DNA from: a virus
IMG/VR virus record: IMGVR_UViG_3300045135_000492
Location: 1-26,868 of that record
Direction: 5' to 3' (one strand)
DNA length: 26,868 bases
This document shows, piece after piece, positions 1,608-25,653 of the stretch (position 1 is the stretch's first letter; every line of letters begins with the position of its first letter). The notes beneath the pieces are model-generated. The model saw only the letters and a program-made list of their open reading frames with translations, searched no databases and was not told the origin of the DNA. Made by a program: the position numbers and the translations under genes.

Positions 1608-1639
1608 AAATATTTCTACATTATTTCTATTATATAATA
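1608..1639 (+). promoter_or_regulatory. Putative phage late promoter, copy A (leaderless)
   Basis: AAATA at 1608-1612 and TCTATTATATAATAT at 1626-1640 reproduce the two-part motif seen at three other late gene starts with identical internal spacing. By analogy with a -7 element, transcription would begin at about 1639, the A of the start codon, giving a leaderless mRNA. The motif does not match the host TAnnTTTG element. Confidence 0.6.
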
Positions 1640-2121
1640 TGATACAATTAACTTATGCTGACATTAACTATACTGCTTACGTTACTACTGAAGATAAAAG
1701 AATAAACACTAGCGTACCTGTTGCTAATATAGGTTTGCTATTTAAGTTTACAAATGATTTAAGCGGTGCGGTTAAATATGCTTATAGTAATAGTACAAGT
1801 ATTAATGATAGGTATTCGCAGGCAAGGTTTACACATAATACAACAGAAGATGTATTTACAGGCGATATAGACCTTAAACCTTTTGGGTATTGGAAGTATG
1901 AAGTTTATGAGGTTAGTTATACGGGTACAGTACCTGTATTAACTTCAGATAATAGTCCTTCTAACGAAAAAGATACTGCAGATATTCAAGAAGGTATTTA
2001 TGGTACAGTACAGGGGCTTGTAGAAGTAGGTAAAATGCACGTATCAGAAACAGTAGGACAAGAGCAAGTTAAGTACACAGAGTACACAGAAACACAAGGT
2101 AATAATTATATACATTTATAA
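1639..2121 (+). CDS. Conserved phage structural protein, function unknown
   Basis: The 160-residue product has no catalytic motif. A central FGYWKYEVYEVSY (82-94) and a C-terminal stretch with GTVQGLVEVGKMHV (122-135) resemble a protein repeatedly found near the portal and tail genes of flavobacterial phages. It is beta-rich and probably a virion component. It is the first gene of the block headed by late promoter copy A, and the next gene starts two bases after its stop. A role in the head, neck or tail cannot be separated from sequence alone. Confidence 0.6.
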   Translation: MIQLTYADINYTAYVTTEDKRINTSVPVANIGLLFKFTNDLSGAVKYAYSNSTSINDRYSQARFTHNTTEDVFTGDIDLKPFGYWKYEVYEVSYTGTVPVLTSDNSPSNEKDTADIQEGIYGTVQGLVEVGKMHVSETVGQEQVKYTEYTETQGNNYIHL

Positions 2122-2123
2122 AA

Positions 2124-2408
2124 ATGAGTTTAACAGATAGCACAAATTCACTATTAAGAGAACAACTAGGTAAAGGTTCAGTAGAAGTATTTACAACAGT
2201 AGCACAAACAGGAAAAGACTACTATGCAGTATATTTCCCTGTAACAAGTACTATTTCATCAATAACGGTTGCAAACGCAACAGGTGAAAGTGCTTTACAG
2301 ACAACAGTACCTGCAGGAACTACTTTATTTATGAGAACAACAGCAATTACTTTAACTTCAGGAATTGGTGTAGGTTATTTAGAATTAGACGGTAGAACAG
2401 GTCAATAA
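2124..2408 (+). CDS. Small beta-rich phage protein, unknown
   Basis: The product has 94 residues and is dominated by Thr, Ser, Val and Gly in alternating patterns that suggest a small beta-sandwich. There is no signal peptide or membrane segment. The stop overlaps the next ATG (TAATG), so translation is probably coupled to the LamG-like gene. A head-fibre or decoration role would fit the neighbours but is inference only. Confidence 0.55.
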   Translation: MSLTDSTNSLLREQLGKGSVEVFTTVAQTGKDYYAVYFPVTSTISSITVANATGESALQTTVPAGTTLFMRTTAITLTSGIGVGYLELDGRTGQ

Positions 2409-3079
2409 TGTTGGGGCTAGGAACAGGTTTATCATTAACAGGACTAGGTACTTGGTTGCCTAGCAATGAAACTTCTTTAGAGTTGTATTGTCAAAATCAG
2501 ACGGGTATAACTGAAGAAGTAGGCGTTGCTAGTTGGAAGGATATTTCAGGGAACAATAGGGATATGGTGCAAGCAGACGATACTGAAAAACCTGCTTATA
2601 GGCCAGATACAGGCGAAGTTACTTTTGATGGAAACGATAATTTACAAACTACAGGTCAAGTTACTTTAGATGGTGAATTTATTATTGGTTTAAGAATATC
2701 ATTTACTGACTTAGCCAATGAAGTAATAATAGCCGACAACACAACTGATAACAACTTTATAAGACTTAACAATTCTAGTACTATAGGCTTGAAATTTAGT
2801 TCTGCACAAAGCACAATAGCACTTAATGACCCTTTGATTGTAGACACTATTTATAGTTTAACGATAACAAGAAACGCTGCAAACTTAGTTGAAGTGTATG
2901 TAGATGGTGTATTGCAGAATGAAAGTATTACGAAAACAGGAACTTTATTACTAGACGCATTAGGAGTAAGACAAACAGATATAAATGATATTGCAGGTTC
3001 AATGTACGAAGTAATAGTATATTCAAAGCATAGTGATATTGTTGTTACAGAAACGAATACAAGATTAAATAGTATATAA
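2408..3079 (+). CDS. LamG / concanavalin A-like domain virion protein
   Basis: The product has 223 residues. After a Gly/Leu-rich N-terminus, residues 26-215 follow the laminin-G / concanavalin-like lectin pattern: ASWKDISGNNRDMVQ (41-55), VTFDGNDNLQ (71-80) and a late strand VEVYVDGVLQN. Such domains bind sugars or proteins and occur on phage surfaces. It overlaps the portal ATG by one base and lies between structural genes, so an exposed capsid or neck decoration that binds host or environmental glycans is plausible. No signal peptide is visible. Confidence 0.65.
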   Translation: MLGLGTGLSLTGLGTWLPSNETSLELYCQNQTGITEEVGVASWKDISGNNRDMVQADDTEKPAYRPDTGEVTFDGNDNLQTTGQVTLDGEFIIGLRISFTDLANEVIIADNTTDNNFIRLNNSSTIGLKFSSAQSTIALNDPLIVDTIYSLTITRNAANLVEVYVDGVLQNESITKTGTLLLDALGVRQTDINDIAGSMYEVIVYSKHSDIVVTETNTRLNSI

Positions 3080-4923
3080 TGGATAAAGTAACCGATATAA
3101 ATACTTCAGTAGACGAATTAATTAATGTAAATTTATCTACAATTACTACACCTGTAGTAAAAGAAGTTATGGGGCGTAAATGGATAGAATACGGAACTGA
3201 TGAATGGCGTAATTTATACCCTCAATTCTTATTAGACCTTTATTATAATTCAGGAACACACGCGGCAATTATAAACGCTACTGCAGATATGATAGCAGGA
3301 CAAGGTGTAATTATAGACGATAACGATAAATTAGAAAAAATAGCAGAACTAGAAGGTTTTTTGTTAAATTTTAATACCGAGGTATTAAATAAGACTGCTA
3401 TAGACTTAAAACTGCAAGGTGGTGTTGCTTGGAATATTATTTGGAGTAACGATAGGAAGACTGCTACTATACATCATTTACCTGTAGATAGATTAAGGAT
3501 AGGGTTACCTAACGCTATGGGGAAAGTAGATACGTATTATGTAAGTGCAGATTGGTCAAATACAAGACGTTATAAACCACAACCTATTCCTGCATTTAAT
3601 CCACACGATAGAACAAGCCCTAATCAAATACTATATTTTGGTGTTTATAGTCCTGCTATGGAACAATATTATACACCTGACTATGTAAGTGCTTGTGGGT
3701 GGGCTATGATAGACCAAAGAATAAGCGAATACCATTTAAACAATATAGAAAACGGGTTTTCAGGTAGTTGGTTTGTAAGTTTAAATAATGGAGTACCTGA
3801 AGAAGACGAGAGAGGGAAGGTAGAAAAAGGTATTAAAAAGAAATTCACAGGTGCTAAAGGAGATAAGATAATAGTATCATTTGCTAATGGTAAAGATAGG
3901 GCTGCAGAAATAACACCTATACAACAATCGGACTCTGATAAGCAGTATTTAGCACTTCAGGAGTTAATGACGCAAAATATAATGATAGGTCATAGGGTAA
4001 CAAGTCCTATGTTATTAGGTGTAAAAACAGAAGGTCAGTTAGGTGGTCGTGATGAATTAATGCAAGCATTTGACATTTACCAAACTACTATTGTTAAACC
4101 ATTCCAAAAGATTATATTAGATAATTTAAGGAAGGTATTAAGAATAAATGGACTAGACTTACCTATTTCTATAAAGCAATCACAACCTTTAACTTCAATG
4201 TTTACTATTGAAGAGATGAAGGAAGTAATGACTGAAGCAGAACTTAGGGAAAAAATGGGTTTAGCACCTTTAGAAGAACCTAAAGATGAATTTAGTAAAG
4301 TAGAAAAGACTGAATTAGATACTTTTTTAGATACAATAGAAGATATTCCTGAAGATTGGGAATTAGTAGATGAAGAAGTAGTAGATGGTGAACACATAGA
4401 TTTTAACTTTGAAGAAGAACTTAATAAAATAGCAGAAGATAAAATAGAACTAGCAAGTACAGGTAGGGCTATTCCTGAAAGGAAGTCTGAACAAGACGGT
4501 ATAAGTAAGAAGACTTACGACTACTATCGTGTAAGGTATGTATATGCAGAAGATGAATTTTTAACAAGAAAGTCAGGAAAGCAAAGAGAATTTTGTGCTA
4601 AAATGATGGGTGCTAAAAAGTTATATCGTAAAGAAGATATTGATAGAATGTCTACACTACCTGTAAATAAAGGTTGGGGTAAAGGTGGTGCAGATACTTA
4701 TGATATATTTTTATTCAAAGGGGGTGGTAATTGTCATCACTTTTGGCTAAGGCAAATTTATAAAACTACAATAGGTGAAAGCAAGACTACTAAGATAGAT
4801 GACGCTGAAGTTATCGGATATACTAAAGCAAGGTCTGAAGGGTTTACTGCTAAGAAAAACGACAATAGAGTAGCGAAACCGCCAAAAAGAATGAAGAACA
4901 AAGGATTTGTAAAAAAGAAATAA
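3079..4923 (+). CDS. Portal protein with a C-terminal Cys/His-containing domain
   Basis: This 614-residue protein should form the dodecameric DNA entry channel at one capsid vertex. Residues about 30-430 match the portal pattern: an N-terminal segment about a tethered chain end (YNSGTHAAIINATADMI), a wing region and a long stem/crown part. From about 483 to 560 a second module follows, with REFCAKMM, a basic YRKEDIDRMS segment and GGGNCHHFW near 548-556, then a Lys-rich tail. Portals of related flavobacterial phages appear to carry the same extension. It may be a MuF-like internal module, which is inference. The portal is separated from the terminase by more than 10 kb, which is unusual. Confidence 0.8.
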   Translation: MDKVTDINTSVDELINVNLSTITTPVVKEVMGRKWIEYGTDEWRNLYPQFLLDLYYNSGTHAAIINATADMIAGQGVIIDDNDKLEKIAELEGFLLNFNTEVLNKTAIDLKLQGGVAWNIIWSNDRKTATIHHLPVDRLRIGLPNAMGKVDTYYVSADWSNTRRYKPQPIPAFNPHDRTSPNQILYFGVYSPAMEQYYTPDYVSACGWAMIDQRISEYHLNNIENGFSGSWFVSLNNGVPEEDERGKVEKGIKKKFTGAKGDKIIVSFANGKDRAAEITPIQQSDSDKQYLALQELMTQNIMIGHRVTSPMLLGVKTEGQLGGRDELMQAFDIYQTTIVKPFQKIILDNLRKVLRINGLDLPISIKQSQPLTSMFTIEEMKEVMTEAELREKMGLAPLEEPKDEFSKVEKTELDTFLDTIEDIPEDWELVDEEVVDGEHIDFNFEEELNKIAEDKIELASTGRAIPERKSEQDGISKKTYDYYRVRYVYAEDEFLTRKSGKQREFCAKMMGAKKLYRKEDIDRMSTLPVNKGWGKGGADTYDIFLFKGGGNCHHFWLRQIYKTTIGESKTTKIDDAEVIGYTKARSEGFTAKKNDNRVAKPPKRMKNKGFVKKK

Positions 4924-4924
4924 T

Positions 4925-5470
4925 ATGAGTTACGTTTTATTTATATCGGAAAATACGCTAAAAGATAGTACTGCTATTAACGGAAATGTAGATGTAGAAT
5001 TTTTACTACCTTACGTTAAAGTAGCACAAAAGAAGTATGTAGAAACTAAACTAGGGACTGATTTATTTGCTAAGTTACAAGCAGATATTACAGCAAGTAC
5101 TTTAACAGGTGATTACAAGACCTTAGTAGATGACTATATTCAAGATATGTTAGTGCATTGGTCATTCTTTGAATGTTTGCCGTATTTAAGATATAAAGTT
5201 TCAAATAACAATATCGTTCAGAAGTCTGCAGAAAACAGTACGCCATTGACAAGAGAAGAAGCGTTTGATTTAAGAGAAGAAGTAAGGAATACTGCAGAAT
5301 TTTATACTAATAGAATGATAGAATATATTATACATAACACGTCTAATTTTCCTGAATATAGCACCAATACAGGTGCAGATGTTAAACCTAGCAAGAATGC
5401 TTACTATTCAGGACTTAACATAGAAAGCGGTTATAAGACTAGCGGAATTATTAAATCAAATGAGTATTAA
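4925..5470 (+). CDS. Head-tail connector / adaptor protein (DUF6712-like)
   Basis: The product has 181 residues and is mostly helical. The pattern of an N-terminal FISENTLKDSTAINGNV segment, a central helical bundle around YIQDMLVHWSFFECLPYL, and a polar C-terminus matches the adaptor family found just after portals in Bacteroidota phages. It would dock on the portal to connect head and tail. The start is two bases after the portal stop. The stop overlaps the ATG of the next tiny gene. Confidence 0.65.
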   Translation: MSYVLFISENTLKDSTAINGNVDVEFLLPYVKVAQKKYVETKLGTDLFAKLQADITASTLTGDYKTLVDDYIQDMLVHWSFFECLPYLRYKVSNNNIVQKSAENSTPLTREEAFDLREEVRNTAEFYTNRMIEYIIHNTSNFPEYSTNTGADVKPSKNAYYSGLNIESGYKTSGIIKSNEY

Positions 5471-5579
5471 AAGAGGTTACAAGCCGAAGTTGAAAAACGA
5501 AGTGGCGTTAAAAAAATATTTAAAAAATGCCAATAAGCAAAGCAGCAAAGGAAGTAGGAGAAGTAATAACGGTAAATAG
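5460..5579 (+). CDS. Small basic protein, 39 residues
   Basis: ATG at 5460 overlaps the end of the connector gene and opens a 39-residue frame, MSIKRGYKPKLKNEVALKKY followed by a Lys/Ser/Asn-rich tail. It is strongly basic and has no membrane segment. It overlaps the next frame by 53 bases, so one of the two may be fortuitous. Position and the tight start-stop overlap favour translation. The function is unknown; nucleic-acid binding would fit its charge. Confidence 0.45.
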   Translation: MSIKRGYKPKLKNEVALKKYLKNANKQSSKGSRRSNNGK

Positions 5580-5703
5580 TACGGCGTTAGGTTTAAGTTT
5601 TACTAATATTGAAAATGGATTAAAGATATTACTATTAATTATATCAATAATGTATACGTTAGACAAGTGGTATCAACACAGGAAAAGTAATGAGAATAAT
5701 TAA
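5527..5703 (+). CDS. Small membrane protein, holin candidate
   Basis: This 58-residue frame starts at ATG 5527 and has one hydrophobic segment, LKILLLIISIMYTL (32-45), followed by a basic, polar tail (KWYQHRKSNENN). Size, topology and position just upstream of a DUF5675 gene fit a holin or other small lysis membrane protein. Two alternative downstream starts (5690, 5704) cluster at its stop codon. A second one-span protein at 6229 is a rival holin candidate. Confidence 0.55.
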   Translation: MPISKAAKEVGEVITVNSTALGLSFTNIENGLKILLLIISIMYTLDKWYQHRKSNENN

Positions 5704-6226
5704 ATGGCTAGAAAGGTTATTAATTCAGTACGTAAGGTATCTAAAAAGAAAAGAAAGGGTGTACACTCAAAAAACGCTTCAAGAGGACAAAACGGCTTTA
5801 AACAAGTCTACAAAGGACAAGGTCGTTAATCTTTTATTAATACGTCAAGAATTTACAGATAAATCTACACAAGGGGTTTTATTTCTAAATGGAACTTATT
5901 TGTGTGATACGTTGGAAAATCCTTTTATTAATAACGAAAGGAATATTAGTTGTATTCCTAAAGGTAGGTATGATGTAAGGTTAAGACTACCTAGAGAAAG
6001 TGCAACAAGGGACTATGTACACTTGTTAGTTAAAGATGTACCTAATAGGGATTATATTTTATTTCATAGAGGTAATAAACCTGAACATACTAAGGGGTGT
6101 ATTCTAGTTGGAATGAATAGTCAACAAGATGTTGTTAATAAGTCAAAGGTTGCTATGGACTTGTTAATCAAAGAAATAATTAATTTGGGCGGTGAAAATA
6201 TTAAATTATTAATTAAAAATCAATAA
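5690..6226 (+). CDS. DUF5675 family lysis-associated protein
   Basis: The conserved domain covers residues 47-178: CDTLENP (72-78), IPKGRY (89-94), and HRGNKPEHTKGCILVG (126-141), the hallmark of DUF5675 proteins. They are often found in phage lysis cassettes and are suspected to act on peptidoglycan. The 46 residues before the domain overlap the 41-residue basic gene in another frame, and no ATG, GTG or TTG lies between that gene's stop and the domain. Either translation starts at 5690 and the region is doubly coding, or a ribosomal frameshift or sequence indel links the domain to the upstream small gene, or a rare start codon is used. Confidence 0.7.
   Translation: MRIIKWLERLLIQYVRYLKRKERVYTQKTLQEDKTALNKSTKDKVVNLLLIRQEFTDKSTQGVLFLNGTYLCDTLENPFINNERNISCIPKGRYDVRLRLPRESATRDYVHLLVKDVPNRDYILFHRGNKPEHTKGCILVGMNSQQDVVNKSKVAMDLLIKEIINLGGENIKLLIKNQ
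5704..5829 (+). CDS. Small very basic protein, 41 residues
   Basis: ATG at 5704 directly follows the holin-candidate stop and encodes a 41-residue protein with SKKKRKGVHSKNAS and a C-terminal YKGQGR. I recognise this RKGVHSK...GQGR pattern as recurring in small proteins of flavobacterial phages, which supports it over the overlapping frame. It lies wholly inside the first 140 bases of the longer frame that ends in the DUF5675 domain. The function is unknown; the charge suggests nucleic acid or membrane-surface binding. Confidence 0.55.
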   Translation: MARKVINSVRKVSKKKRKGVHSKNASRGQNGFKQVYKGQGR

Positions 6227-6228
6227 AA

Positions 6229-6372
6229 ATGGAAAATTGGATTGAAGTACTTTTAGCAGTTCTAGGAGTTGCTGAAGTAATCGTAAGACTTACACCAACA
6301 GAAAAGGATAATTCTATTCTTAACAAAATTATGTGGGTGGTAAACAAACTTGTACCTAATCGTATCAAGTAA
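6229..6372 (+). CDS. One-span small membrane protein of the lysis cassette
   Basis: ATG at 6229 opens a 47-residue frame with a hydrophobic N-terminal segment (WIEVLLAVLGVAEVIV, 4-19) followed by RLTPTEKDNSIL and a C-terminal VPNRIK. The PTEKDNSIL...PNR pattern is one I associate with a small protein next to lysis genes in many Bacteroidota phages. Its stop and the next ATG share a base (TAATG). It could be a holin or a spanin-like partner. Confidence 0.65.
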   Translation: MENWIEVLLAVLGVAEVIVRLTPTEKDNSILNKIMWVVNKLVPNRIK

Positions 6373-7085
6373 TGACTAACCGTTTTCGGTTAAAGCCACA
6401 CGAAATAGACGCTTTATTTAGAATGCGTAAAGGTAAAAATAACGTTTTGGTCATAGGGGATATACATTGCCCTTTTGACCTTGACGGATATTTAGACTTT
6501 TGTAAGGAAAAATACAATGAATATAATTGTAATGAAGTAGTCTTTATAGGTGATGTAATAGACAATCACTATTCTAGTTATCACGAAACAGATGCAGATG
6601 GAATGGGTGGTGCAGATGAACTTGAACTTGCTATAAATAGACTATCAAGATGGCACGAAGCATTTCCAAAAGCAACAGTTGTAATAGGAAATCACGATAG
6701 AATGATTATGCGTAAGGCACAAACAAGTGCAATACCTAGTAAGTGGATTAAATCGTACAAAGAAGTGTTAGGAGTTCCAAAATGGAATTTTGTAGTGTCT
6801 TATATAAAAGATGGTGTTCAATACTTACACGGTGAAGGTGGTACTGCTAGGACTAAATGTAGAGCCGATATGATGAATACGGTGCAAGGTCATCTACATA
6901 CACAAGCGTATTGCGAACACTATGTAGGCAAGAATTTCAGGGTGTTTGGTATGCAAGTAGGATGTGGTATTGACTTTGACAAGTACGCATTTGCGTATGC
7001 TAAAGCAGGTAAGAAACCAGCAATTGCTTGTTCAGTTGTTTTAAATGATGGTAAAACACCTATTAATCTATTAATGGAGTTGTAA
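6372..7085 (+). CDS. Calcineurin-like metallophosphoesterase
   Basis: This 237-residue enzyme has the complete metal-binding set: GDIHCPF (29-35), GDVIDNH (60-66), GNHD (106-109), HGEG (153-156) and GHLHT (173-177). It should bind two metal ions and hydrolyse phosphomonoesters or phosphodiesters; the substrate could be a nucleotide, nucleic acid end or protein phosphate. It is the last gene of its block and is followed by a terminator, so it appears to be expressed with late genes, which is odd for an enzyme of nucleotide metabolism. A host-type promoter motif begins at its last codons. Confidence 0.85.
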   Translation: MTNRFRLKPHEIDALFRMRKGKNNVLVIGDIHCPFDLDGYLDFCKEKYNEYNCNEVVFIGDVIDNHYSSYHETDADGMGGADELELAINRLSRWHEAFPKATVVIGNHDRMIMRKAQTSAIPSKWIKSYKEVLGVPKWNFVVSYIKDGVQYLHGEGGTARTKCRADMMNTVQGHLHTQAYCEHYVGKNFRVFGMQVGCGIDFDKYAFAYAKAGKKPAIACSVVLNDGKTPINLLMEL

Positions 7086-7108
7086 TTTAAATTATTTTCA
7101 TATATTTG
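7080..7108 (+). promoter_or_regulatory. Host-type (Bacteroidota sigma) promoter
   Basis: TTG at 7080-7082, an 18-base spacer and TATATTTG at 7101-7108 match the Bacteroidota consensus TTG-N17-23-TAnnTTTG. Transcription would begin near 7115. Only about 80 bases lie between that point and a strong terminator, so its likely product is a short RNA. Confidence 0.55.
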
Positions 7109-7114
7109 CATTAG

Positions 7115-7193
7115 TTTTAGGTGTAGTGCTCTTGAAACGTTTTTTCAAAAACTATTTTAGTTAAGACTGAGAATTGCCCTTCTCAGTTTTTTT
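7115..7193 (+). ncRNA. Candidate small phage RNA
   Basis: A host-type promoter predicts a start near 7115 and an intrinsic terminator ends at 7193, with no open reading frame of note between. The intervening sequence can fold into a small upstream hairpin (TTGAAA 7132-7137 with a TTTCAA arm just downstream) before the terminator stem. It does not resemble a tRNA. The exact 5' end and the existence of the RNA are inferred from promoter plus terminator alone. Confidence 0.35.
7163..7193 (+). terminator. Intrinsic terminator after the lysis / phosphoesterase block
   Basis: ACTGAGAA (7166-7173) pairs with TTCTCAGT (7180-7187) over 8 bp around TTGCCC, and a T-tract runs to 7193; extra A-T and G-U pairs lengthen the stem. 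It closes the late block that begins at 1639 and insulates it from the early region. Confidence 0.88.
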
Positions 7194-7254
7194 ATGTGTA
7201 ATAATTACACCTGAACCAAAAACAAGCGTAAAATCAACACTTTTTTACACTCTC

Positions 7255-7321
7255 AAATTATACCCGTAAGGGTATAAAACACCACAAAAACACTAAAAAT
7301 GTACCCTTACGGGTATAATTT
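7255..7321. repeat. 20-bp perfect inverted repeat in the long intergenic region
   Basis: AAATTATACCCGTAAGGGTA at 7255-7274 is the exact reverse complement of 7302-7321, with 27 bases between. Each arm also contains its own small palindrome, TACCC-gtaa-GGGTA. The structure lies in the 338-base non-coding stretch (7086-7423) upstream of the early promoter. It could be a pair of operators for a dimeric regulator, a cruciform or a replication origin element. Confidence 0.85.
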
Positions 7322-7366
7322 CATATCTAGTAAATTGACATTTCTGTTAAAAAAGTTGTTAAAACA

Positions 7367-7397
7367 TTTGTGAGTAACTGAAAAAGGTGTAGTTTTG
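7367..7397 (+). promoter_or_regulatory. Early promoter of host type
   Basis: TTTG at 7367-7370, exactly 19 bases, then TAGTTTTG at 7390-7397 is an excellent match to the Bacteroidota housekeeping promoter. A start near 7404 leaves a 20-base A-rich leader before the ATG at 7424. It would launch the whole early block using unmodified host polymerase. Confidence 0.75.
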
Positions 7398-7423
7398 TAC
7401 CATAATTTTAAAATAATAAAGAA

Positions 7424-7896: not shown

Positions 7897-7919
7897 AGTA
7901 GGCAAAATAAATTATAATT

Positions 7920-8363: not shown

Positions 8364-8364
8364 G

Positions 8365-11649: not shown

Positions 11650-12003
11650 ATGATAAAACCAATATACGCTAGTAAGGAACACGAAGTAATAATGTTAGGA
11701 TATTTAGAAACAACAAAACAATTAGTAAAGGAAGTATCTGATAAAGATAGGTACAAGAATTATCTTGACGTTTACGAAGTTATAATTGAATATCATAACA
11801 ACTATGGAAATGGAGTAGAAAAGTCAGGGTGGTATGATTGGTTGTCGGTACTACCTGCAAACTTATCTGTAATGACTAACGGTTATTTTGCGGCACTAGA
11901 AAGTAAGTCTAACGCAGCAACTATAAGGGCGTACCGAACTATATTAAATGATATGTTAGAAGAAGTAGTGATGAAGTTAAGTAGTTTGAAAGTGAATGAG
12001 TAG
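11650..12003 (+). CDS. Early helical protein, unknown (117 residues)
   Basis: I do not recognise a family. The product is largely helical, with a Tyr-rich centre (NYLDVYEVIIEYHNNYGNG) and a Trp-containing segment WYDWLSVLP. There is no membrane segment. It overlaps the sigma-like gene by eight bases, so it could be a partner or regulator of it, but this is only contextual. Confidence 0.6.
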   Translation: MIKPIYASKEHEVIMLGYLETTKQLVKEVSDKDRYKNYLDVYEVIIEYHNNYGNGVEKSGWYDWLSVLPANLSVMTNGYFAALESKSNAATIRAYRTILNDMLEEVVMKLSSLKVNE

Positions 12004-12535
12004 GGTTTACGAAGTCATAGCAGAACAAAGAGTTGTATTTATGGGTATTGCTGAAAGGTTTACAAATGATATTAACGAAGTAGATGAAGCAGTTCAGGAG
12101 TTAATGCTATACTTTATGGGAATGAATAAAGAAACTTTAGAAACTATATATCATAAAGACGGGGTGAATGGTATTATACGCTATGGTGCAGTTGCGTTAA
12201 GACGTGCATTCACAAGTCCTAGAAGTTCTTATTTTTATAAATACAGAAAGTATTACACTAACTTAGACGATACTTGTAATACTACTGACCATACTAATAG
12301 GACGTTACAGGGCTTTGCAGAAGAAATAGAAGAAACGAATAAGTGGGAACAATTAGAAACTATAGATAAGTATTTAGAAGAAATGTATTGGTACGATAGG
12401 GAGGTATTTAAATTATATTATTACGAAGATAACACTTTAAGTTCTTTAGCAAAGAAGCTAGGAATTAGCAGGAATAGTTTATTTACTACTATAGATAAAG
12501 TTAGAAAGGAGTTAAAAGAAAACATAAATGAATAG
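11996..12535 (+). CDS. RNA polymerase sigma-factor-like protein
   Basis: The product has 179 residues. The C-terminal 133-175 is a sigma region 4 type helix-turn-helix: YDREVFKLYYYEDNTLSSLAKKLGISRNSLFTTIDKVRKELK reads as helix, turn and recognition helix. Residues about 17-45 (AERFTNDINEVDEAVQELML) resemble the acidic, core-binding part of region 2. It would redirect host RNA polymerase. Four copies of a non-host promoter motif precede the late blocks, and this is the natural candidate to read them; that link is inference. It could instead be a sigma-like repressor or activator. Confidence 0.75.
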   Translation: MSRVYEVIAEQRVVFMGIAERFTNDINEVDEAVQELMLYFMGMNKETLETIYHKDGVNGIIRYGAVALRRAFTSPRSSYFYKYRKYYTNLDDTCNTTDHTNRTLQGFAEEIEETNKWEQLETIDKYLEEMYWYDREVFKLYYYEDNTLSSLAKKLGISRNSLFTTIDKVRKELKENINE

Positions 12536-14886: not shown

Positions 14887-15531
14887 ATGAAAATAACAAA
14901 CGAAGATAATATGGAGCTAATGGCAAGGTATGAAGATAACTACTTTGACCTTGCTATTGTAGACCCACCTTATGGGATTGATGCTGAAAAAAGCCAAAAG
15001 ACATATAATAAAAATAATACTATTAGTAATGGTGGTAAATGGAAAGATTACGAAAATAAAAATTGGGATTTAGAAATACCTAACAAAGATTATTTTTATG
15101 AGTTGAAACGCATAAGTAAAAATCAAATTGTTTGGGGTGGCAATTATTTTGTTGAACATTTGAACAACACTAAATGCTTTTTGGTTTGGGATAAAATACA
15201 AAGGACATATTTATCTGATGGTGAAATAGCTTGGACTTCTTTTGATAAGCCGATGAAAGTATTTAGATATAGTAAAATAGATGCTTATGTAAATGATTGT
15301 GATATTAAAATACACCCAACACAAAAACCAGTAAAACTTTATGAATGGTTGCTTATGAATTATGCAAAAGAAGGAGATAAGATATTAGATACACATCTTG
15401 GAAGTGGCTCAATAGCTATTGCTTGTCATAACTTAGGATTTGAGCTTACAGCTTGTGAACTTGACAAAGATTATTTTGATGCAGCAATGAAAAGAATAGC
15501 AATACATAAGCAACAATTAACTATGTTTTAA
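14887..15531 (+). CDS. DNA adenine N6-methyltransferase, paralogue 2
   Basis: This 214-residue enzyme has DPPYG (26-30), a central variable region with QIVWGGNYF, HPTQKPVKLYEW and DTHLGSGS, in the same beta-class order as the first paralogue. Stretches of 48 bases (14935-14982) and 33 bases (15309-15341) are identical to 10649-10696 and 10996-11028, yet the part between differs strongly, so the recognition regions are probably different and the two enzymes may modify different motifs. It is the last early gene, and its stop overlaps the upstream element of late promoter copy B. Confidence 0.9.
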   Translation: MKITNEDNMELMARYEDNYFDLAIVDPPYGIDAEKSQKTYNKNNTISNGGKWKDYENKNWDLEIPNKDYFYELKRISKNQIVWGGNYFVEHLNNTKCFLVWDKIQRTYLSDGEIAWTSFDKPMKVFRYSKIDAYVNDCDIKIHPTQKPVKLYEWLLMNYAKEGDKILDTHLGSGSIAIACHNLGFELTACELDKDYFDAAMKRIAIHKQQLTMF

Positions 15532-15561
15532 ATAAATAAGAATGTTTTCTATTATATAGTA
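15530..15561 (+). promoter_or_regulatory. Putative phage late promoter, copy B
   Basis: AAATA at 15530-15534 and TCTATTATATAGTAT at 15548-15562 have the same spacing as the other three copies. The predicted start near 15561 gives a 24-base leader to the small terminase ATG. No terminator is visible between the early block and this site, so early transcripts could also run into the terminase genes. Confidence 0.6.
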
Positions 15562-17044: not shown

Positions 17045-17072
17045 GTAGCCGCCCTATTAAAGAAGCGACTAC
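17045..17072 (+). other. Stem-loop after the terminase genes
   Basis: GTAG-c-CGC (17045-17052) pairs with GCG-a-CTAC (17065-17072) with one mismatch around a 12-base loop. No T-tract follows. It marks the end of the terminase block, ahead of late promoter copy C, and may terminate weakly or stabilise the 3' end. Confidence 0.5.
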
Positions 17073-17121
17073 CTTAAACAAAATAAAGAATTAAGAAAAT
17101 ATGGTCAAATATAATATTTTA

Positions 17122-17153
17122 AACTAATAACTAAATAATTCTATTATATATTA
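17122..17153 (+). promoter_or_regulatory. Putative phage late promoter, copy C (leaderless)
   Basis: AACTA at 17122-17126 and TCTATTATATATTAT at 17140-17154 match the other copies in spacing; only this upstream element deviates from AAATA. The distance from TATTATAT to the ATG is 11 bases, exactly as in copy A, so a leaderless tail-gene mRNA is predicted. Confidence 0.6.
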
Positions 17154-17934: not shown

Positions 17935-18394
17935 TACGATTAAACAATTAGGTGCTAATCATCATCAAATCACAACAGTTACTTCAGGTGATATATGGGA
18001 GATAGATTTAGAAAAGAATACTAAATACCCTTTAATGCATATTAATACTGTATCAGTATCCGCAGGTAAATCGCAATTAACATTTAACTTCCAAGTGTTT
18101 ATAATGGATGCAGTAGAACCTGATGAAAGCAATGAACAAGAAGTGTTAAGTGATACTTTAAGTATTTGTTTAGATATTGTATCTATATTCAAGTCAGGAG
18201 AAAGTTTATACTTTTACAATTCAACACACGGACAAGAACCTGACTACTTTGTAGACGACAATTTTGATTTAGAACCATTTACAGAAAGGTTTGATAATTC
18301 ATTAACAGGGTGGGTGTTTAACCTACCTATAACGGTAGAGTTTAGATATAATAGTTGTAATGTACCTACACTAACAACAGCAATAGGTAAGTAA
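17900..18394 (+). CDS. Probable tail terminator / tail completion protein
   Basis: The product has 164 residues. The conserved-looking pattern is HHQITTVTSGDIWEID, YPLMHIN, then DTLSICLDIVSIF and a C-terminal EFRYNSCNVP. It occurs next to tail chaperone and gp10-like genes in flavobacterial phages, where a tail terminator is expected. It overlaps the frameshifted chaperone tail by 35 bases. The function is inferred from position and size. Confidence 0.55.
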   Translation: MVVDKTYNNVIDTIKQLGANHHQITTVTSGDIWEIDLEKNTKYPLMHINTVSVSAGKSQLTFNFQVFIMDAVEPDESNEQEVLSDTLSICLDIVSIFKSGESLYFYNSTHGQEPDYFVDDNFDLEPFTERFDNSLTGWVFNLPITVEFRYNSCNVPTLTTAIGK

Positions 18395-18462
18395 TGCTTA
18401 AATTTAAAATAGGAAATATAACTATACAATTATTACCACCTAAAATAACTTGGAAACTATGA
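18394..18462 (+). CDS. 22-residue microprotein in the tail block
   Basis: ATG 18394 shares a base with the previous stop (TAATG), and its TGA overlaps the next ATG (ATGA). The product, MLKFKIGNITIQLLPPKITW plus two residues, fits the start of a longer tail-associated protein (KFKIG...QLLPP) I associate with Bacteroidota phages, so it may be a shortened relative. It may also act only as a translation coupler. Confidence 0.45.
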   Translation: MLKFKIGNITIQLLPPKITWKL

Positions 18463-18971
18463 AGAACTTAGAAAGGTATTTAAATAGTTTCGGTAAGTCT
18501 GTTGTAAAGCAGTCTAAGGCACGTTTACAATCTTCAGATAAGGTTGTTTCAGGCTCTTTGTTAAATTCTATAAGGTACGAGGTAAAGCAAGATAAAGATA
18601 ATTTTGTAGTTCGTTTCTTTATGGCTGAACACGGGAAATTTATAGATAAAGGAGTTTCAGGGAAAAAGCAAAGGCAATACTATAAAGATATACAGGGCAA
18701 AAGAAGACAAAGCCCTTTTAAATATAAATCAAAACGACCACCTGCTAGTATGTTAGATAAGTGGATAGTAAGGCGTGGCATAGCACCTAGAGACGCTAAA
18801 GGTCGTTTTATGAGTAGAAAAAGTTTACAGTACCTTATAGCAAATAAGATATTCTTTAAAGGTACAAAAGGTATAAGTTTCTTTACAACGCCTGTAAGGT
18901 TAGCAATGAAGGACTTACCAAAAGACATATTAGTAGCAATAAGAAAAGATATAATAAATTCAATTAAGTAA
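18459..18971 (+). CDS. HK97 gp10-like head-tail joining / minor tail protein
   Basis: I start at ATG 18459 (ATGA overlap), not the upstream TTG at 18450, giving 170 residues. SGSLLNSIRYEV, FMAEHGKFIDKGVSGK and KRPPASMLDKWIVRRG match the gp10-like family: a basic, helical-to-beta protein with a conserved EHGKFIDKG turn and a WIVRRG segment. It helps complete the neck or tail. Position between the terminator-like gene and tail genes agrees. Confidence 0.7.
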   Translation: MKNLERYLNSFGKSVVKQSKARLQSSDKVVSGSLLNSIRYEVKQDKDNFVVRFFMAEHGKFIDKGVSGKKQRQYYKDIQGKRRQSPFKYKSKRPPASMLDKWIVRRGIAPRDAKGRFMSRKSLQYLIANKIFFKGTKGISFFTTPVRLAMKDLPKDILVAIRKDIINSIK

Positions 18972-20431
18972 TGGCGTTATCAATAACACAACAACCGAAA
19001 TACAAAACACTACCTGCAGCACAACCTGTAATATTTACAGCGTCAGACCTAAGTTATGTAGCAGCAAATTATAAAATTAAGTATGTAGCAGAAGTATATA
19101 TATCTACTACATCAACAGGAATTATAGCAACTGCTAATAAGGTAGCAACACTTAAAACAAGTCCTAATGGTTCAGGAGTAGGTATATTTGATTTAAGGTC
19201 TATTATTGAAAGTTATGTTAGTCCTGATTATACAGGTGCTTATGTAAATCCTGCAACACAATCTAATTACTCAAAATATAAAACTACAGGGTGGTCTGAA
19301 TTAACGCCACACCCTATACATTTAATAGATAAGTATTGTTGTAATAGTACTTCTGCAAGATACTTTGCAGTTAGGTTTAAAATAGAAGGGGCTACATCAC
19401 AAACAGGAAGCGTTACGGATAGTGGGCAAACTTCAGATAGTGATACCAATTTAGTATACAACGGATATATTAAAAATGAAGATGAATTATATTTAGATAG
19501 TACTAATGGTGAATTTGGGTACAACTTAGAAACTTCATCTACACACGTTATAATGAATGATGGTACTAACGGTAGTTTCTTAACTAATGCACCTAAACGG
19601 CTTAAAGCAAGACTTACAGACTATGGTACTATGGCGTTCTTTAACCATTTAACAGGGGCTAATAACGACTTTGAAATAGGTGGCGGTGGTGCTACTACTA
19701 AAAAAGTAGATAAAATCACTATTGAATTGTATGATAGTTCAGGTAGTCAGTTAGGCACAGATATAGATGTTACTTGTCAGGCGTCAAACGGGGGGTCTGC
19801 AGGTACAGATGGTAAATCGTACTACAAACTTCAGTATTTTGGTTGTTACCCTGCTAACTTAGATAATTGGAATACTACTTGGGATACACATAAAGCAAAT
19901 GTAAGTTATTATACTATACAGGCGTATAATGACGCTTCACAGAAAATAGCAAAAGAATATAGGATAGATATAATTGAAGACTGCAAATTTGATGGTATTC
20001 GTTTGGCTTGGGTTAATAAGTATGGGGTTTGGGACTATTACACTTTTAATATGAAATCTTCAAGAAGCTTAACTACTAAAAGAACACCATATACGCAAAT
20101 AGACGGAACTTGGAATGATACTATTTACAGAATACACGGCTATCAAGGTGGTAAAAAGAACTTTAGAGTAAATACAAAAGAAAAGATAAAAGTTAATACA
20201 GATTATATTTCAGAAGCAGAAGCAGTTTGGTTTGAAGAACTTATAGCAAGTCCTGAAGTATATATATTAAATGGATTTACTTCTAGTGATACAAATATGA
20301 TACGTAAATTTGTAGAACCTGTTACACTTACAACAACAAGTTACACACGTAAGACTAAAGCAAACGATAAGTTAATTCAATACACATTTGAAGTAGAACG
20401 TACTAAGAATAATAATATACAATCAATATAA
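18971..20431 (+). CDS. Tail protein, probably distal tail or tip
   Basis: The 486-residue product is beta-rich throughout, with no membrane segment. The C-terminal part contains GIRLAWVNKYGVWDYYTFNM and a later AEAVWFEELIASPEVYIL, resembling a tail protein class seen in Bacteroidota siphoviruses. A low-complexity Ser/Thr/Asp stretch near 140-165 could be a flexible insertion. It is translated with its neighbours by ATG overlap (TAATG at both ends). Confidence 0.6.
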   Translation: MALSITQQPKYKTLPAAQPVIFTASDLSYVAANYKIKYVAEVYISTTSTGIIATANKVATLKTSPNGSGVGIFDLRSIIESYVSPDYTGAYVNPATQSNYSKYKTTGWSELTPHPIHLIDKYCCNSTSARYFAVRFKIEGATSQTGSVTDSGQTSDSDTNLVYNGYIKNEDELYLDSTNGEFGYNLETSSTHVIMNDGTNGSFLTNAPKRLKARLTDYGTMAFFNHLTGANNDFEIGGGGATTKKVDKITIELYDSSGSQLGTDIDVTCQASNGGSAGTDGKSYYKLQYFGCYPANLDNWNTTWDTHKANVSYYTIQAYNDASQKIAKEYRIDIIEDCKFDGIRLAWVNKYGVWDYYTFNMKSSRSLTTKRTPYTQIDGTWNDTIYRIHGYQGGKKNFRVNTKEKIKVNTDYISEAEAVWFEELIASPEVYILNGFTSSDTNMIRKFVEPVTLTTTSYTRKTKANDKLIQYTFEVERTKNNNIQSI

Positions 20432-23136
20432 TGAGTTTACAATTAATATTATTCCCGCAAAGTTATGAAGGGTATTATAATTCAACTTCTGCTACAGTTA
20501 CAACGCAATATGTAGCAGACAATAGTTTGTTTCTTACATCTGACCTAGATACTTCTGTAGGCACTACTTTAGGTACTCCTTGTGATGAAGCAATAGATAC
20601 TGACGGGGCTATTATAGGGGCTTGGAAAAGATACCATACTACAGGTACTTCTTATGCGGTTACAACACCACCTGACAATTACTTTTCTGTAGCGTCAGGG
20701 GTTTTCCTTTCAGGTATTGAGTTTTTTAGTCACGCAACACAAGATAGTCATTCAGGGATATATCAAAAGATAGATGGTTTAGTTGTAGGTCAGTCATATA
20801 CAATAGTAATAGATATTGAACATCAAGCAACAGGAGGTATATTAACAATAGGTTGCCCTAATCGTACAGATACTTTAGCGGGTGGTGGTGTATGGAATGA
20901 AAATACTAACGTTTCACAAATAACAAGGTCTTTTGTAGCTGTTAACACGGAAGAAATCTTAGTATTAGATTATTTAAATGACAATGGCGATAATTTAAAA
21001 GTAAGTAAAGTATCTATTACACATAGTTCGCAAGTTGTTACTTCAGTATATGATGGTCAAGTTCTTTGTGATTTATATGAAGAAGAAGAAATACCTTTAA
21101 CATTAAGTATTGACGAATTTAAAAACGCTGCAGAAAGCATACAATCGTATTCTAAAGCATTTAAACTACCTGCTACTAAAAGAAATAATAAAATCTTTTC
21201 GCACTTATTTGACGTAACAAGAAGTGTGGACAATTTTAGTTTTAGCCCTTACAAAAAGACTAAGTGTATTTTAAAGCAAGATGGTCTTAATATATTTGAA
21301 GGGTTTTTAAAGTTAATAGATATAAATAATAAAGAAGGTGAAATAAGTTACAATGTAAACTTGTATTCAGACCCTATTGTACTTGCTGAAACTTTAAAAG
21401 ACAAGAAGTTAAAGGAAATTAATATGTCTGAATTAAATCACGACTATTACGCAGGAAACATAAAGAATAGTTGGACGGGTGTTTTGGATTTAAAAAATCC
21501 TTTATCCGCAGGTTCTTTTGCAGGAAACGTAAATGATACAACTACAGATGTTCTTAAATATCCTTTTGTAAATTGGATAGGAACGCACAACGCAAATAGT
21601 ACTCATATTAGTTTAGAGTATTTAGAAGATGTATTTAGACCTTTTATTAAATGTAAGTATATCTTTGATAGAATTATGTCGGAAGCAGAATTTACTTACG
21701 ATAGCGACTTTTTAAATTCCACAAAATTTACTAAGTTATTTATGGATTTTAATTTTGGAGGTGATAGAACGGGGGCGCAGTCAGGTAGTGGGGTTACGGA
21801 ATACGCGTCCCGTGATGTTTCATCACCTATGTCTTCTACTCAATCTTGGAAAACGTTAAAATTAAATTCAAGCCAACAACAAACAGTATACTACAACAAA
21901 TCAACAGGAAAACTAACAGCACAATCTAATAATACAATAGTTAGTGTTTCATATAGTTTGTCTGCAGAAAATACAACGTACAATCCGCATAATTCTCAAT
22001 TTAGAATTTTAAAAACAGAAACTTCAGGAGATACTACCGAATTAGAAAAAATATCAGACTATGTTTCAGGAAATTGGTTTGGGGGTGGTTCAGGCAGTAT
22101 AGATATATCGCTTAACAATGGGGACACTATAGAGTTTCAGCATAGGACAAATAGTTCTACTGCGGGATTGTTTGATGTTTCAGGTTTTGCTACTATGGGG
22201 GTTTCTTCAGAAATTATTGAAGCAGCCGATTTATTACAAAATGTACGTGGCGACTTAGGGCAGTGGGATTTTGTTAAAGGAATTTTTACAATGTTTAACT
22301 TAGTGGTTATGCAGGATAAATTAAATCCTACAAATTTAATTATAGAACCTTATAATGATATATTTATAGATAATTCTGATAGTGTAGAACACGATTGGAC
22401 TACTAAGATAGACGCTACAGAAATAAAACTTAAACCTATTGATTTAACTAAGTATGTGCATTTCAAATATGAAACAGATGATAGTGATTATAATGCTAAA
22501 AAATACAATAAAGCAGTAGACCGTGAGTATGGAGAAAAAATACTAGAACTTCCTGAATTAACTTTACTTGAAGGCGAACAAGAAATTATAGCGACACCTT
22601 TTGCGTCTACAGTTTGTAGGGAATTTCATAGTTCGTTTGACAATAATTTAATTGTACCTGCAATATATTCTTCAGGTGATAATGATGAATTTTCACCATT
22701 TGAAAATTTACCTAGAATACTGTATGATAATGGTGTTAATCAATTAGGTGCAGGTACTTATTCTTCAAATATTCAAAACCACGTATCAAGTAAGTTTACA
22801 AATGAAGACGAATTTTTGCAATTTAGTCATTTATCCGCAGTACCTTCAGGGGTGGGTGTAGAAGATTATAATTTTGAAAGCGAACCTTTGATAGGTAACG
22901 CTATAGGAGTACCTAGTGTAGATAATTTATATAGTTTATATTGGTCACCTTATTTTGACGAACTATATAATGAAGAAACAAGGGTTGTTACATTAAAAGT
23001 AAACCTTACCGCTTCAGATATTAATACATTTAACTTTTACGATACTGTATTCATTAAAAACAGGTCTTACAGAGTTAATAAAATAGAGTACAAACCAAAC
23101 GGACTATCTAAAGTTGAATTTTTACTTATACCATAA
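20431..23136 (+). CDS. Large tail / baseplate protein
   Basis: The 901-residue product is the largest in the window. Residues about 20-205 look like a beta-sandwich (possible carbohydrate-binding insertion), followed at about 213-330 by DLYEEEEIPLTLSIDEF and SYSKAFKLPATKRNN, a block that recurs in large tail proteins of flavobacterial phages. The end has FNFYDTVFIKNRSYRVNKI. Size and position upstream of the fibre suggest a hub or baseplate component that holds the receptor-binding protein. Confidence 0.6.
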   Translation: MSLQLILFPQSYEGYYNSTSATVTTQYVADNSLFLTSDLDTSVGTTLGTPCDEAIDTDGAIIGAWKRYHTTGTSYAVTTPPDNYFSVASGVFLSGIEFFSHATQDSHSGIYQKIDGLVVGQSYTIVIDIEHQATGGILTIGCPNRTDTLAGGGVWNENTNVSQITRSFVAVNTEEILVLDYLNDNGDNLKVSKVSITHSSQVVTSVYDGQVLCDLYEEEEIPLTLSIDEFKNAAESIQSYSKAFKLPATKRNNKIFSHLFDVTRSVDNFSFSPYKKTKCILKQDGLNIFEGFLKLIDINNKEGEISYNVNLYSDPIVLAETLKDKKLKEINMSELNHDYYAGNIKNSWTGVLDLKNPLSAGSFAGNVNDTTTDVLKYPFVNWIGTHNANSTHISLEYLEDVFRPFIKCKYIFDRIMSEAEFTYDSDFLNSTKFTKLFMDFNFGGDRTGAQSGSGVTEYASRDVSSPMSSTQSWKTLKLNSSQQQTVYYNKSTGKLTAQSNNTIVSVSYSLSAENTTYNPHNSQFRILKTETSGDTTELEKISDYVSGNWFGGGSGSIDISLNNGDTIEFQHRTNSSTAGLFDVSGFATMGVSSEIIEAADLLQNVRGDLGQWDFVKGIFTMFNLVVMQDKLNPTNLIIEPYNDIFIDNSDSVEHDWTTKIDATEIKLKPIDLTKYVHFKYETDDSDYNAKKYNKAVDREYGEKILELPELTLLEGEQEIIATPFASTVCREFHSSFDNNLIVPAIYSSGDNDEFSPFENLPRILYDNGVNQLGAGTYSSNIQNHVSSKFTNEDEFLQFSHLSAVPSGVGVEDYNFESEPLIGNAIGVPSVDNLYSLYWSPYFDELYNEETRVVTLKVNLTASDINTFNFYDTVFIKNRSYRVNKIEYKPNGLSKVEFLLIP

Positions 23137-23975
23137 TGAACTATAAAAAAGGATTTAAAATAAAACCAAAAGAAATAACAGCATTAGGTGAAGTGTTGTT
23201 TACAGATGGTACAAACGATAATTTGCGAGCAAATCAAAAGACTTGTGAGGAGTACGGATACAGGTACGATAGCGAAAAGGGTCTTTGTTATTCAGGTAGA
23301 CAAGGTAGTAAGGTTGCTAGGGTGTTCAGAAATATAACAAACAACACAACAGGAGGTACTACAGAAAGCGGTACTGCTAACACTACTTTGTTAGGAACTG
23401 CTAACAAGACTAAAGGACAAAACAATAACGGATTTGTAACAGGTGAAGAACACGAATTAGGGAACGGACTAGATAACGCTTCTATTGTAGGAGGTAAGAA
23501 AGCAAAAGCATTAAGACAAGGAGAAGTAGTAGTAGGTGGTGGTGGTGGTTATACATCTACACAGGGGGCGGTACAAACTTCAAGTGTTCAGGTAAGTGGT
23601 ACAACAACAGACGCAACGGCTACCAATTTAACAACACAAGATGACGGAACAAATATAATTGAAATGCAAGGCGGTTCTGTTACTATATTTGAATGTTACT
23701 TAACAGGGCTTGTAGTAGTTGGTAGTGGTAGTGTAAATGCAGGAAACCACAAAAGTATTAAAATAACAGGTAGTGTAGTGACTACAGGGGCGTTAGCGTT
23801 AACTATTACACAAAGTCAAACTACAATATCTAGTACTGTAGCAGGTATATCTGCAACACTTGTACAATCTAACAATCAGTTAGCAGTTCAGGTTACAGGT
23901 TTAGCAGGTGTAACTATCTATTGGACGTGTACAGTTAATATGCACGAAAACGTAATTAGTGGTAAATATTTTTAA
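23136..23975 (+). CDS. Tail fibre / receptor-binding protein
   Basis: The 279-residue product has an N-terminal virion-attachment part (1-60) with two cysteines (C37, C51), a Gly/Asn-rich repeat region (about 80-138) with LLGTANKTKG and ASIVGGKKAKAL that resembles YadA-type trimeric head repeats, and a beta-rich C-terminus with SSVQVSGTTTDAT and HKSIKITGSVVTTGAL, which is common at the ends of Bacteroidota phage fibres. A trimeric fibre that binds the host surface is the best guess. Confidence 0.7.
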   Translation: MNYKKGFKIKPKEITALGEVLFTDGTNDNLRANQKTCEEYGYRYDSEKGLCYSGRQGSKVARVFRNITNNTTGGTTESGTANTTLLGTANKTKGQNNNGFVTGEEHELGNGLDNASIVGGKKAKALRQGEVVVGGGGGYTSTQGAVQTSSVQVSGTTTDATATNLTTQDDGTNIIEMQGGSVTIFECYLTGLVVVGSGSVNAGNHKSIKITGSVVTTGALALTITQSQTTISSTVAGISATLVQSNNQLAVQVTGLAGVTIYWTCTVNMHENVISGKYF

Positions 23976-23986
23976 AAAATAATAAA

Positions 23987-25591
23987 ATGGCAAAAGAAAG
24001 TTTAGAGTTAGAAGTAAAATCAAATATAAAAGAAGCGGTAAAAGACACCGAAAAACTAACAGATGGTTTAAAGGACGCAACAAAGGAAACCGAAAACCTT
24101 GCTGACGCTACAAAGGACGGTAAAAAAGGCTTTTTAGGTTTAGGTGGTGCGGTTAAAAGTATAGGTGCAGGATTTAAAGCATTAGGAATAGGTCTTATTA
24201 TTGGTTTATTTACACAATTAAAAGAAATATTTGGTCAAAACCAAAAAGTAATGGACTTCTTTAATACAGCATTAGAAAGTACATCTATAATGTTTAATGA
24301 TTTATTTAGTTTCTTAAGTAATAACGTAGGGACTGTAGTTGATTATTTTAAAGGTTTATTTGAAGACCCTGTACAGCACTTAAAAGACTTTGGTAACGCT
24401 ATAAAAGAAAATATACAAGAACGTTTTGAAAGTTGGTTAGATACTATGGGGTACTTAGCAAGTGCAGTAGGTAAATTATTTAAAGGCGACTTTGCAGGGG
24501 CTATGGATAGTGTTAAACAAGCAGGAAAAGAAGCGGTTGATGTATTTACAGGGGTTAATAATTCAGTAGACAAAGCAGCAGAAATATACGAAAAGACAAC
24601 TAAAGCCGTAAAAGAATACACAAAATCGGTTGTTAGTAGTGCTTCTGCAAATGTGAAATTAAAAAAAGATAGTGAATTAGCAAAAGTTCAAATACAAGGT
24701 GTTATTGAAGAATATGATAGGGAGGCGGAAAAACTAAGACAGGTTCGTGATGACGAAACAAAGACTTTTGAAGAACGAATAGAAGCAAATAACAAGTTAG
24801 GCGAAACACTTGAAAAGCAAAAAGAAAAGATGTTAGAACTTGTTGATATACAGGTGAAAGCAGCACAAGTGGAATATGATAAAAATCAAAGTCAAGAAAA
24901 CCTTATAGCACTTACAGAAGCGTTAAACGAAAAGAAAGGAGTAGAAGCACAAATAACAGGGTTTCAATCTGAACAACTAACAAATCAAGTATCACTTGAA
25001 AAAGAACTTAAAGATGTTAAGAATGAAGTGTTGGCAGAAGGATTGTCAGGTATGCAAAGGGAACTTGCAGAACTTGAAGCAAATTATAAGTTAAAAAAAG
25101 AAATGGCTGAAAAGTCAGGAATGGATACTGCAGAAATTACTAAGAAATACGAAAAACAAAAATCTGCTATTGTAAGTGCAGGTATTAACGAACAATTAAG
25201 CGCTTATTCATCTTTTGCAGGTGCTTTAAGTGAAATGGCAGGAGAAAACAAAGCGTTAGCAGTTGCACAAGCAACTATAGATACTTATACTGCAGTTACT
25301 AAAACATTAAAAGAAAGTACTTTACCTTACCCTGCTAATATTATAGCGGCTGCAGGAATAGGTGTGCAAGGATTTAATAATATACGTAAAATTATGCAAG
25401 TAGACGTAGGAGGTGGCTCTAGTGGTTCAGCACCTACACCTACAGCAAGTACACCTGCACCTGAATTATTAAGTGGTAAGTTTGAGTTAAGTGGTGGTGA
25501 ACAAGAACCTATAAAAGCGTATGTAGTTACTGATGAAATGACTAATAGTCAAGATCAATTAGCAAACATAAGGCGTAGAGCTACAATATAG
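23987..25591 (+). CDS. Tape measure protein
   Basis: The 534-residue product is mainly helical: a coiled-coil N-terminus, a hydrophobic segment at about 58-78 (SIGAGFKALGIGLIIGLFTQL minus its first residue), a long charged coiled-coil (about 200-420) and a second hydrophobic part near 447-465, then a Ser/Pro/Thr-rich tail. This is the classic tape measure layout. At about 1.5 angstrom per residue it predicts a tail near 80 nm. It is the last gene of the tail block, which is unusual: it normally follows the chaperones and precedes the tip genes. Confidence 0.85.
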   Translation: MAKESLELEVKSNIKEAVKDTEKLTDGLKDATKETENLADATKDGKKGFLGLGGAVKSIGAGFKALGIGLIIGLFTQLKEIFGQNQKVMDFFNTALESTSIMFNDLFSFLSNNVGTVVDYFKGLFEDPVQHLKDFGNAIKENIQERFESWLDTMGYLASAVGKLFKGDFAGAMDSVKQAGKEAVDVFTGVNNSVDKAAEIYEKTTKAVKEYTKSVVSSASANVKLKKDSELAKVQIQGVIEEYDREAEKLRQVRDDETKTFEERIEANNKLGETLEKQKEKMLELVDIQVKAAQVEYDKNQSQENLIALTEALNEKKGVEAQITGFQSEQLTNQVSLEKELKDVKNEVLAEGLSGMQRELAELEANYKLKKEMAEKSGMDTAEITKKYEKQKSAIVSAGINEQLSAYSSFAGALSEMAGENKALAVAQATIDTYTAVTKTLKESTLPYPANIIAAAGIGVQGFNNIRKIMQVDVGGGSSGSAPTPTASTPAPELLSGKFELSGGEQEPIKAYVVTDEMTNSQDQLANIRRRATI

Positions 25592-25609
25592 CAACTAAAA
25601 TTTAGTCGC
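25591..25609 (+). other. Stem-loop after the tape measure gene
   Basis: GC-a-ACTAA (25591-25598) pairs with TTAGT-c-GC (25602-25609) with one mismatch and a 3-base loop. No T-tract follows. Like the hairpin after the terminase, it lies at a block end, just before a late promoter copy. Confidence 0.5.
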
Positions 25610-25621
25610 ACTTTAAAAATC

Positions 25622-25653
25622 AAATATTAGCAATTTATATCTATTATATATTA
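25622..25653 (+). promoter_or_regulatory. Putative phage late promoter, copy D
   Basis: AAATA at 25622-25626 and TCTATTATATATTAT at 25640-25654 repeat the two-part motif. The predicted start near 25653 leaves a 19-base leader to the ATG at 25672. It would drive the protease and, past the window edge, scaffold, capsid and tail tube genes. Confidence 0.6.

Follow-up and report, generated by a model that had tools for sequence, protein, structure and literature searches.

A phage sigma factor that works with host core RNA polymerase at late promoters is known from phages phiEco32, 7-11, and T4, and the class of system described here is therefore not new. T4 gp55 is a small phage sigma-like protein with AT-rich -10-like late promoters (TATAAATA); T4 late transcription requires gp33 and the sliding clamp, and its promoters have no -35 element. 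The stretch of viral DNA analysed here (the window; 26,868 bp) resembles the T4 system in its small sigma-like protein and in the AT-rich, -10-like character of its putative late promoters, but differs in having a conserved upstream element. The late sigma of phage 7-11, SaPh711_gp47, has bipartite promoters GTAAtg-(16)-aCTA (PMC8948821). Phage 7-11 is like the window in that a phage sigma acts on host RNA polymerase, late promoters are bipartite, and early promoters are of the host-sigma type. However, it is an enterobacterial podophage with an unrelated promoter sequence, and is not known to have a family-wide residue-base code or the leaderless late mRNAs predicted for the window. Promoters of the phiEco32 sigma gp36 have the form tAATGTAtA, a single element attributed to missing sigma region 4 homology (PMC8948821, PMC4331800). 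In phiEco32, as proposed here, a phage sigma and host core drive middle and late genes; in contrast, both elements are conserved in the window and a sigma4-like HTH is present. Flavobacterial ECF sigma factors recognize promoters of motif SM6 with a CGT box and serve host regulons, e.g., type IX secretion (PMC9723704). They share the sigma2 + sigma4 layout with the phages studied here, and CGT at -10 with Nonlabens phage P12024S. The window family has the core TCTATT instead of the usual ECF CGT box: compared with the AAC-type -35 and CGT-type -10 of ECF promoters, 16-17 nt apart, it has AAA[C/T] and TCTATT at similar spacing and no CGT. We found no report on late-gene activation in Bacteroidota phages in the open literature; most subscription journals were outside the search.

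The window is a linear IMG/VR virus contig with a GC content of 31.9%, and contains capsid, portal, terminase, lysozyme-like, and protease genes. Because it begins 71 bp ahead of the capsid gene and its 3′ end falls within the protease gene, part of the genome is absent from the record. Terminal direct repeats of 77-127 bp in five relatives suggested complete genomes of 27.4-29.6 kb; thus, the window probably lacks its end only. IMG/VR holds at least 559 related stretches. The closest cultured phage is Nonlabens phage P12024S/L (identity 65% for terminase and 31% for portal). From this relationship and from the TAnnTTTG early promoters we infer a Bacteroidota host, and the hosts of this large marine siphophage family are probably Bacteroidota (Flavobacteriia). 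Related DNA methyltransferase genes were present on either side of the sigma region (10601-11218 and 14887-15531), with short stretches 86% DNA-identical to P12024L.

The original prediction placed a two-part motif of identical internal spacing at four positions in the window. Counts of the exact core and of shuffled sequences put this far above chance. The core TCTATTATATAnTAT had exactly four copies in the window, each on the + strand (1626, 15548, 17140, and 25640) and with the predicted identical internal spacing, and the core with AAATA at the right distance occurred three times vs. 0.00 expected (100 shuffles). The fourth copy in the window had AACTA in place of AAATA, as had been read in one copy. 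With three mismatches allowed, the core was found 27 times vs. 23.5 expected, which is nothing special; the signal thus resides in exactness and placement. Three of the four sites had also been described as lying behind a hairpin or terminator, which was convincing at 1608 only: the hairpin ahead of the 25622 site is weak and lacks a T run, and the 15530 and 17122 sites had no preceding hairpin better than shuffled sequence. Features are listed in Table 1.

Table 1. Features of the window and orthologous late sites of its relatives. Promoters, +1 positions, and leaderless starts are predicted.
Feature	Position	Strand	Elements	Remarks
Late promoter 1	1607..1639	+	CAAATATT from 1607; core TCTATTATATA 1626-1636	+1 at 1639 falls on the A of the ATG in gene 1639 (leaderless); serves block 1639-7085 with structural genes, portal, and a lysozyme-like gene; orthologous site in relatives
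Late promoter 2	15529..15561	+	TAAATAAA from 15529; core 15548-15558	+1 at 15561; serves terminase genes 15585 and 15961
Late promoter 3	17120..17153	+	TAAACTAA from 17120; core 17140-17150	+1 at 17153 = A of ATG (leaderless); serves tail block 17153-25591
Late promoter 4	25621..25653	+	CAAATATT from 25621; core 25640-25650	+1 at 25653; serves 25672 gene, protease, and onward
Intrinsic terminator	1569..1601	+		Between capsid block and late promoter 1; -16.4 kcal/mol, z -3.6
Host-type -7 element	7101..7108	+	TATATTTG	TTG upstream; head of early block
Second TAnnTTTG element	7390..7397	+	TAGTTTTG	Just ahead of first early gene, 7424
ECF-like sigma factor gene	11996..12535	+		179 aa; within early block; Pfam, PHROG, Foldseek
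Arg76 codon	12221..12223	+		Residue covarying with core base 1
Orthologous site a				Before terminase genes, or before inserted gene ahead of terminase
Orthologous site b				After large terminase gene
Orthologous site c				After tape-measure gene
Orthologous site d				Just 3′ of protease gene, ~660-820 bp ahead of capsid gene
Orthologous site e				Before homologue of gene 1639

Conservation of the motif was investigated in whole records of 50 contigs, reached via terminase, sigma, or motif; 32 were read fully and oriented. Five orthologous late-gene positions per genome carried the core in these relatives. The count of four sites is thus correct for the window but not for the genome; the missing one, just after the protease gene, falls in the absent end of the linear record. 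The motif search in relatives that had been proposed as a check gave 148 forward PWM matches and 1 reverse match across 33 records, at orthologous late positions, and did not reveal the many copies at random positions that would have refuted the prediction. The PWM was built from exact copies, so that forward exact copies were recovered by construction; independent evidence comes from the strand bias, from the inexact copies, and from the orthology of the positions. The upstream element, predicted as AAATA, was present but is in fact longer: [C/A/T]AAA[T/C]AAA emerged among copies selected solely by core. No motif site was found in the early block of relatives. Eight relatives had inserted genes between the first late promoter and the terminase or tail genes; in these, the promoter still lay at the head of the block, well upstream of terminase and tail.

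Early genes had been assigned to host promoters, and the relatives supported this assignment. In 13/25 genomes, TTG-N17-24-TAHHTTTG was present where the early block begins, no more than 350 bp past the phosphoesterase gene, vs. about 0.025 expected per 350 bp from overall density. The sigma gene sits in this block, behind the host-type promoters.

The sigma gene was found in 35 of the 50 relative records, one of which begins within the gene and holds just its last 26 residues. Each family record spanning the 11996 locus encodes the homologue, and those family records that were read and had the motif without the full sigma gene were fragments not reaching its locus. Relatives with the motif but without the sigma gene, which would have counted against the prediction, were therefore not seen in the family. 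The other sigma-less records, which were not read, are mostly larger contigs with one or a few motif matches that probably arose by chance. Another 39 sigma loci had 3 kb or more of downstream sequence; a PWM match was present there in 38, and the 39th had a variant core in that sequence. No PWM match was found up to 5.5 kb upstream of sigma at these loci. One relative (IMGVR_UViG_3300028925_001669) had two differing sigma homologues (698-1252 and 29145-29708), both with R76; on a circular genome, ~2.5 kb would separate them, and a duplication is possible. A scan of genome contigs gave two matches, both GTDB MAG contigs having the sigma gene and the phage late-promoter layout; these contigs, labelled Pseudooceanicola (an alphaproteobacterium) and Euryarchaeota (an archaeon), are probably mis-binned phage contigs.

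Residue 76 of the sigma covaried with core base 1, which lies at about -12 in TCTATT. All phages with C at base 1 had R76 in their sigma (93/93); in the 28 usable phages with A, residue 76 was N in 20, Y in 6, and otherwise T or H. Column 76 was alone among the 179 sigma columns in having residues disjoint between C- and A-type phages. In an initial set of 88 distinct sigmas linked to a post-terminase site, R76 accompanied C at base 1 in 84, and the remaining four combined A with N, N, T, and Y. This covariation involved two lineages only, for which the chance of any private column is ~7x7/179 = 0.27. Because the first result could have arisen by chance, A-type promoters were then sought on their own: IMG/VR was searched by DNA pattern alone before residue 76 was read from each linked sigma. 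Most A-type phages came from this promoter-only search. The final counts exclude L524, which does not properly belong to the family, and another locus (L536) from which the region is absent. A quick tree that still included the outlier L524 required four C/A switches, at least three of them forced by well-supported branches; a smaller, careful tree forced two. When ten other conserved phage proteins were used as a control, no well-populated column separated the groups fully (best balanced accuracy 0.90). Three C-type genomes had one protease-side site with A at base 1, and one phage with R76 had one A-type site before terS; the rule is thus not absolute at every site. Two apparent R76/A exceptions (G038 and L337) were rejected as anchoring errors, the regex having caught an earlier TAAACTA, and a presumed TATATACT site with R76 (L451) was actually a mis-registered TCTATTATATACT.

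Classical side-chain/base pairings include Arg with G and Asn with A. The covariation implies that the phage sigma very probably recognizes the late motif; it is strong but indirect evidence, without binding or transcription data. Since the sigma residue changes in step with the promoter base, the phage very probably re-aims host RNA polymerase at its late genes, an inference made from sequence. We consider it likely that the phages have their own code, in which R76 reads C:G at about -12 and Asn, Tyr, His, or Thr go with A:T, with a repeated switch between the two and with leaderless tail and structural mRNAs.

A second case was provided by Nonlabens phage P12024S (Inhavirus, NC_018271), whose arrangement was located via terminase and not by sigma search. 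AAAAC-N16/17-CGTTAATA occurred at five places on one strand, with a looser sixth at 167, and an annotated ATG lay exactly 12 bases past the C in 6/6 (179, 3031, 5412, 23961, 25201, and 26802). AAAAC-N16/17-CGTT fits the ECF pattern of AAC-type -35 and CGT-type -10. The product of gp33 (20595-21074), annotated as hypothetical, is a Sigma70_r2 protein above the cut-off (1.4e-5) and is probably the late sigma of this cultured phage; gp33 relatives in IMG/VR retain the pattern. P12024S is like the window family in late-block layout, AAAC-type upstream element, start-codon offset, and possession of its own sigma-like gene, but has the core CGTTAATATA and a sigma barely alignable to that of the window. 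Because the profile comparison of the two sigmas was weak, we do not claim homology between them.

The CGT at the start of the P12024S core could be taken to mean that the late sites are read by an alternative host sigma, ECF or other, which the phage exploits, and that the phage sigma-like protein does something else; flavobacteria do have several ECF sigmas with CGT-type -10 boxes (PMC9723704). However, it is a phage residue that covaries perfectly with the promoter base, through at least three independent switches, and no family record that spans the locus lacks the sigma gene. Reading by a host sigma is thus very unlikely.

The description of the 11996 product as a sigma-like protein was supported by profile and fold comparisons. 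The window protein matched Pfam Sigma70_r4 (2.5e-5; 24.2 bits vs. cut-off 24.1) and, weakly, PHROG phage sigma families; Sigma70_r2 remained below the Pfam cut-off in window relatives (16.8 vs. 24 in one relative). An AlphaFold2 model built from 43 relatives, of moderate confidence (pLDDT 76.7), had a helical domain at 1-87, a linker, and an HTH at 117-177. The Foldseek matches listed against PDB were almost exclusively sigma factors; the best was ECF sigma SigL (6dv9_F; 2.6e-4, probability 1.00), with SigW, SigE, AlgU, and SigK near. A PDB sequence search gave no convincing sigma, whereas this fold search did, and tblastn of the window sigma against cultured phages gave no match. As judged from the model, the protein appears to have an ECF-like layout with sigma2 and sigma4 only. 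Since just the HTH part of the window protein passes the Pfam cut-off, it might instead be a DNA-binding activator or repressor, not a sigma, for which the motif is an operator used together with host primary sigma. However, no exact TAnnTTTG element adjoins any of the four window sites, the model resembles sigma factors across both domains, and the site geometry predicts a Y-A start. We therefore regard an operator as very unlikely.

Such a start was evident from the sites themselves. If TATTAT is taken as the -10, an A 13 bases past the first T of the core is at a normal +1; this A was present in 93% of sites, with T or C just before it in 88%. The predicted 5′ ends in the window (1639, 15561, 17153, and 25653) agree with this conserved Y-A. 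Among 146 sites, an ATG opening a reading frame lay exactly at the predicted +1 in 58, i.e., about 40%, and up to 5 nt off in 23 more. In codons 2-15 after the p17153 ATG, differences per codon position were 36/25/76; in the protease block they were 256/79/456, third position foremost. No alternative in-frame ATG was found in these start regions. The ATGs at the predicted +1 thus look used, as far as codon patterns can tell. With the predicted +1 at an ATG in so many sites, many late mRNAs should be leaderless or nearly so, provided that the motif is a promoter, for which there are no transcription data. Leaderless mRNAs are uncommon in flavobacteria: they make up 5.5% in F. psychrophilum (PMC9723704), and in F. 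johnsoniae 87% of leaders are longer than 10 nt (PMC6847099).

The fixed offset of the ATG, together with its recurrence in all six annotated P12024S genes, would also suit a translation-initiation or mRNA leader element. This reading, too, is very unlikely: the same motif, including the +1 A, lies 9-36 nt before the ATG at capsid-side and terS sites, the spacing of the two blocks suits sigma -35/-10 recognition, and the covarying partner is a sigma factor. A promoter for a single-subunit RNA polymerase was rejected, as no large window ORF resembled such a gene on inspection.

At the level of sequence, the analysis demonstrated that the sites are conserved, that they co-occur with the sigma gene, and that residue and base covary; a sigma-like fold is predicted. 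Although RNA and biochemical data are lacking, it is highly probable that the four window sites are late promoters read by the phage ECF-like sigma of gene 11996. The original proposal that late genes use host polymerase with the phage sigma is thus supported by orthologous sites, co-occurrence, and covariation; transcription itself has not been shown. In the proposed mechanism, host polymerase with host primary sigma would transcribe the early block, including the sigma gene, from TAnnTTTG promoters near 7100-7400. The phage sigma would then join host core RNA polymerase, binding and timing being inferred. Its C-terminal sigma4 is presumed to read the upstream element (CAAATAAA / TAAACTAA) and its sigma2 the core TCTATTATATA, where Arg76 would favour C at base 1 (position about -12); these domain assignments are inferred. 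Transcription may start at the conserved A 13 bases past the first T of the core (the exact start is also inferred), and where this A is that of an ATG, the mRNA would be leaderless.

What is new here is the family, the apparent ECF type of its sigma, a recurring switch of one residue together with one base, and the predicted leaderless design. The family gives a full scheme in which early genes have host promoters and five late promoters with predicted starts are assigned to a phage sigma, and the proposed residue-base contact is specific and testable by two point changes. If the late mRNAs are leaderless, it must be asked how they are translated in hosts that have few such mRNAs. The system may provide a rule to predict late operons in metagenomic phages, and possibly an orthogonal sigma/promoter pair for a phylum with promoters unlike those of E. 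coli.
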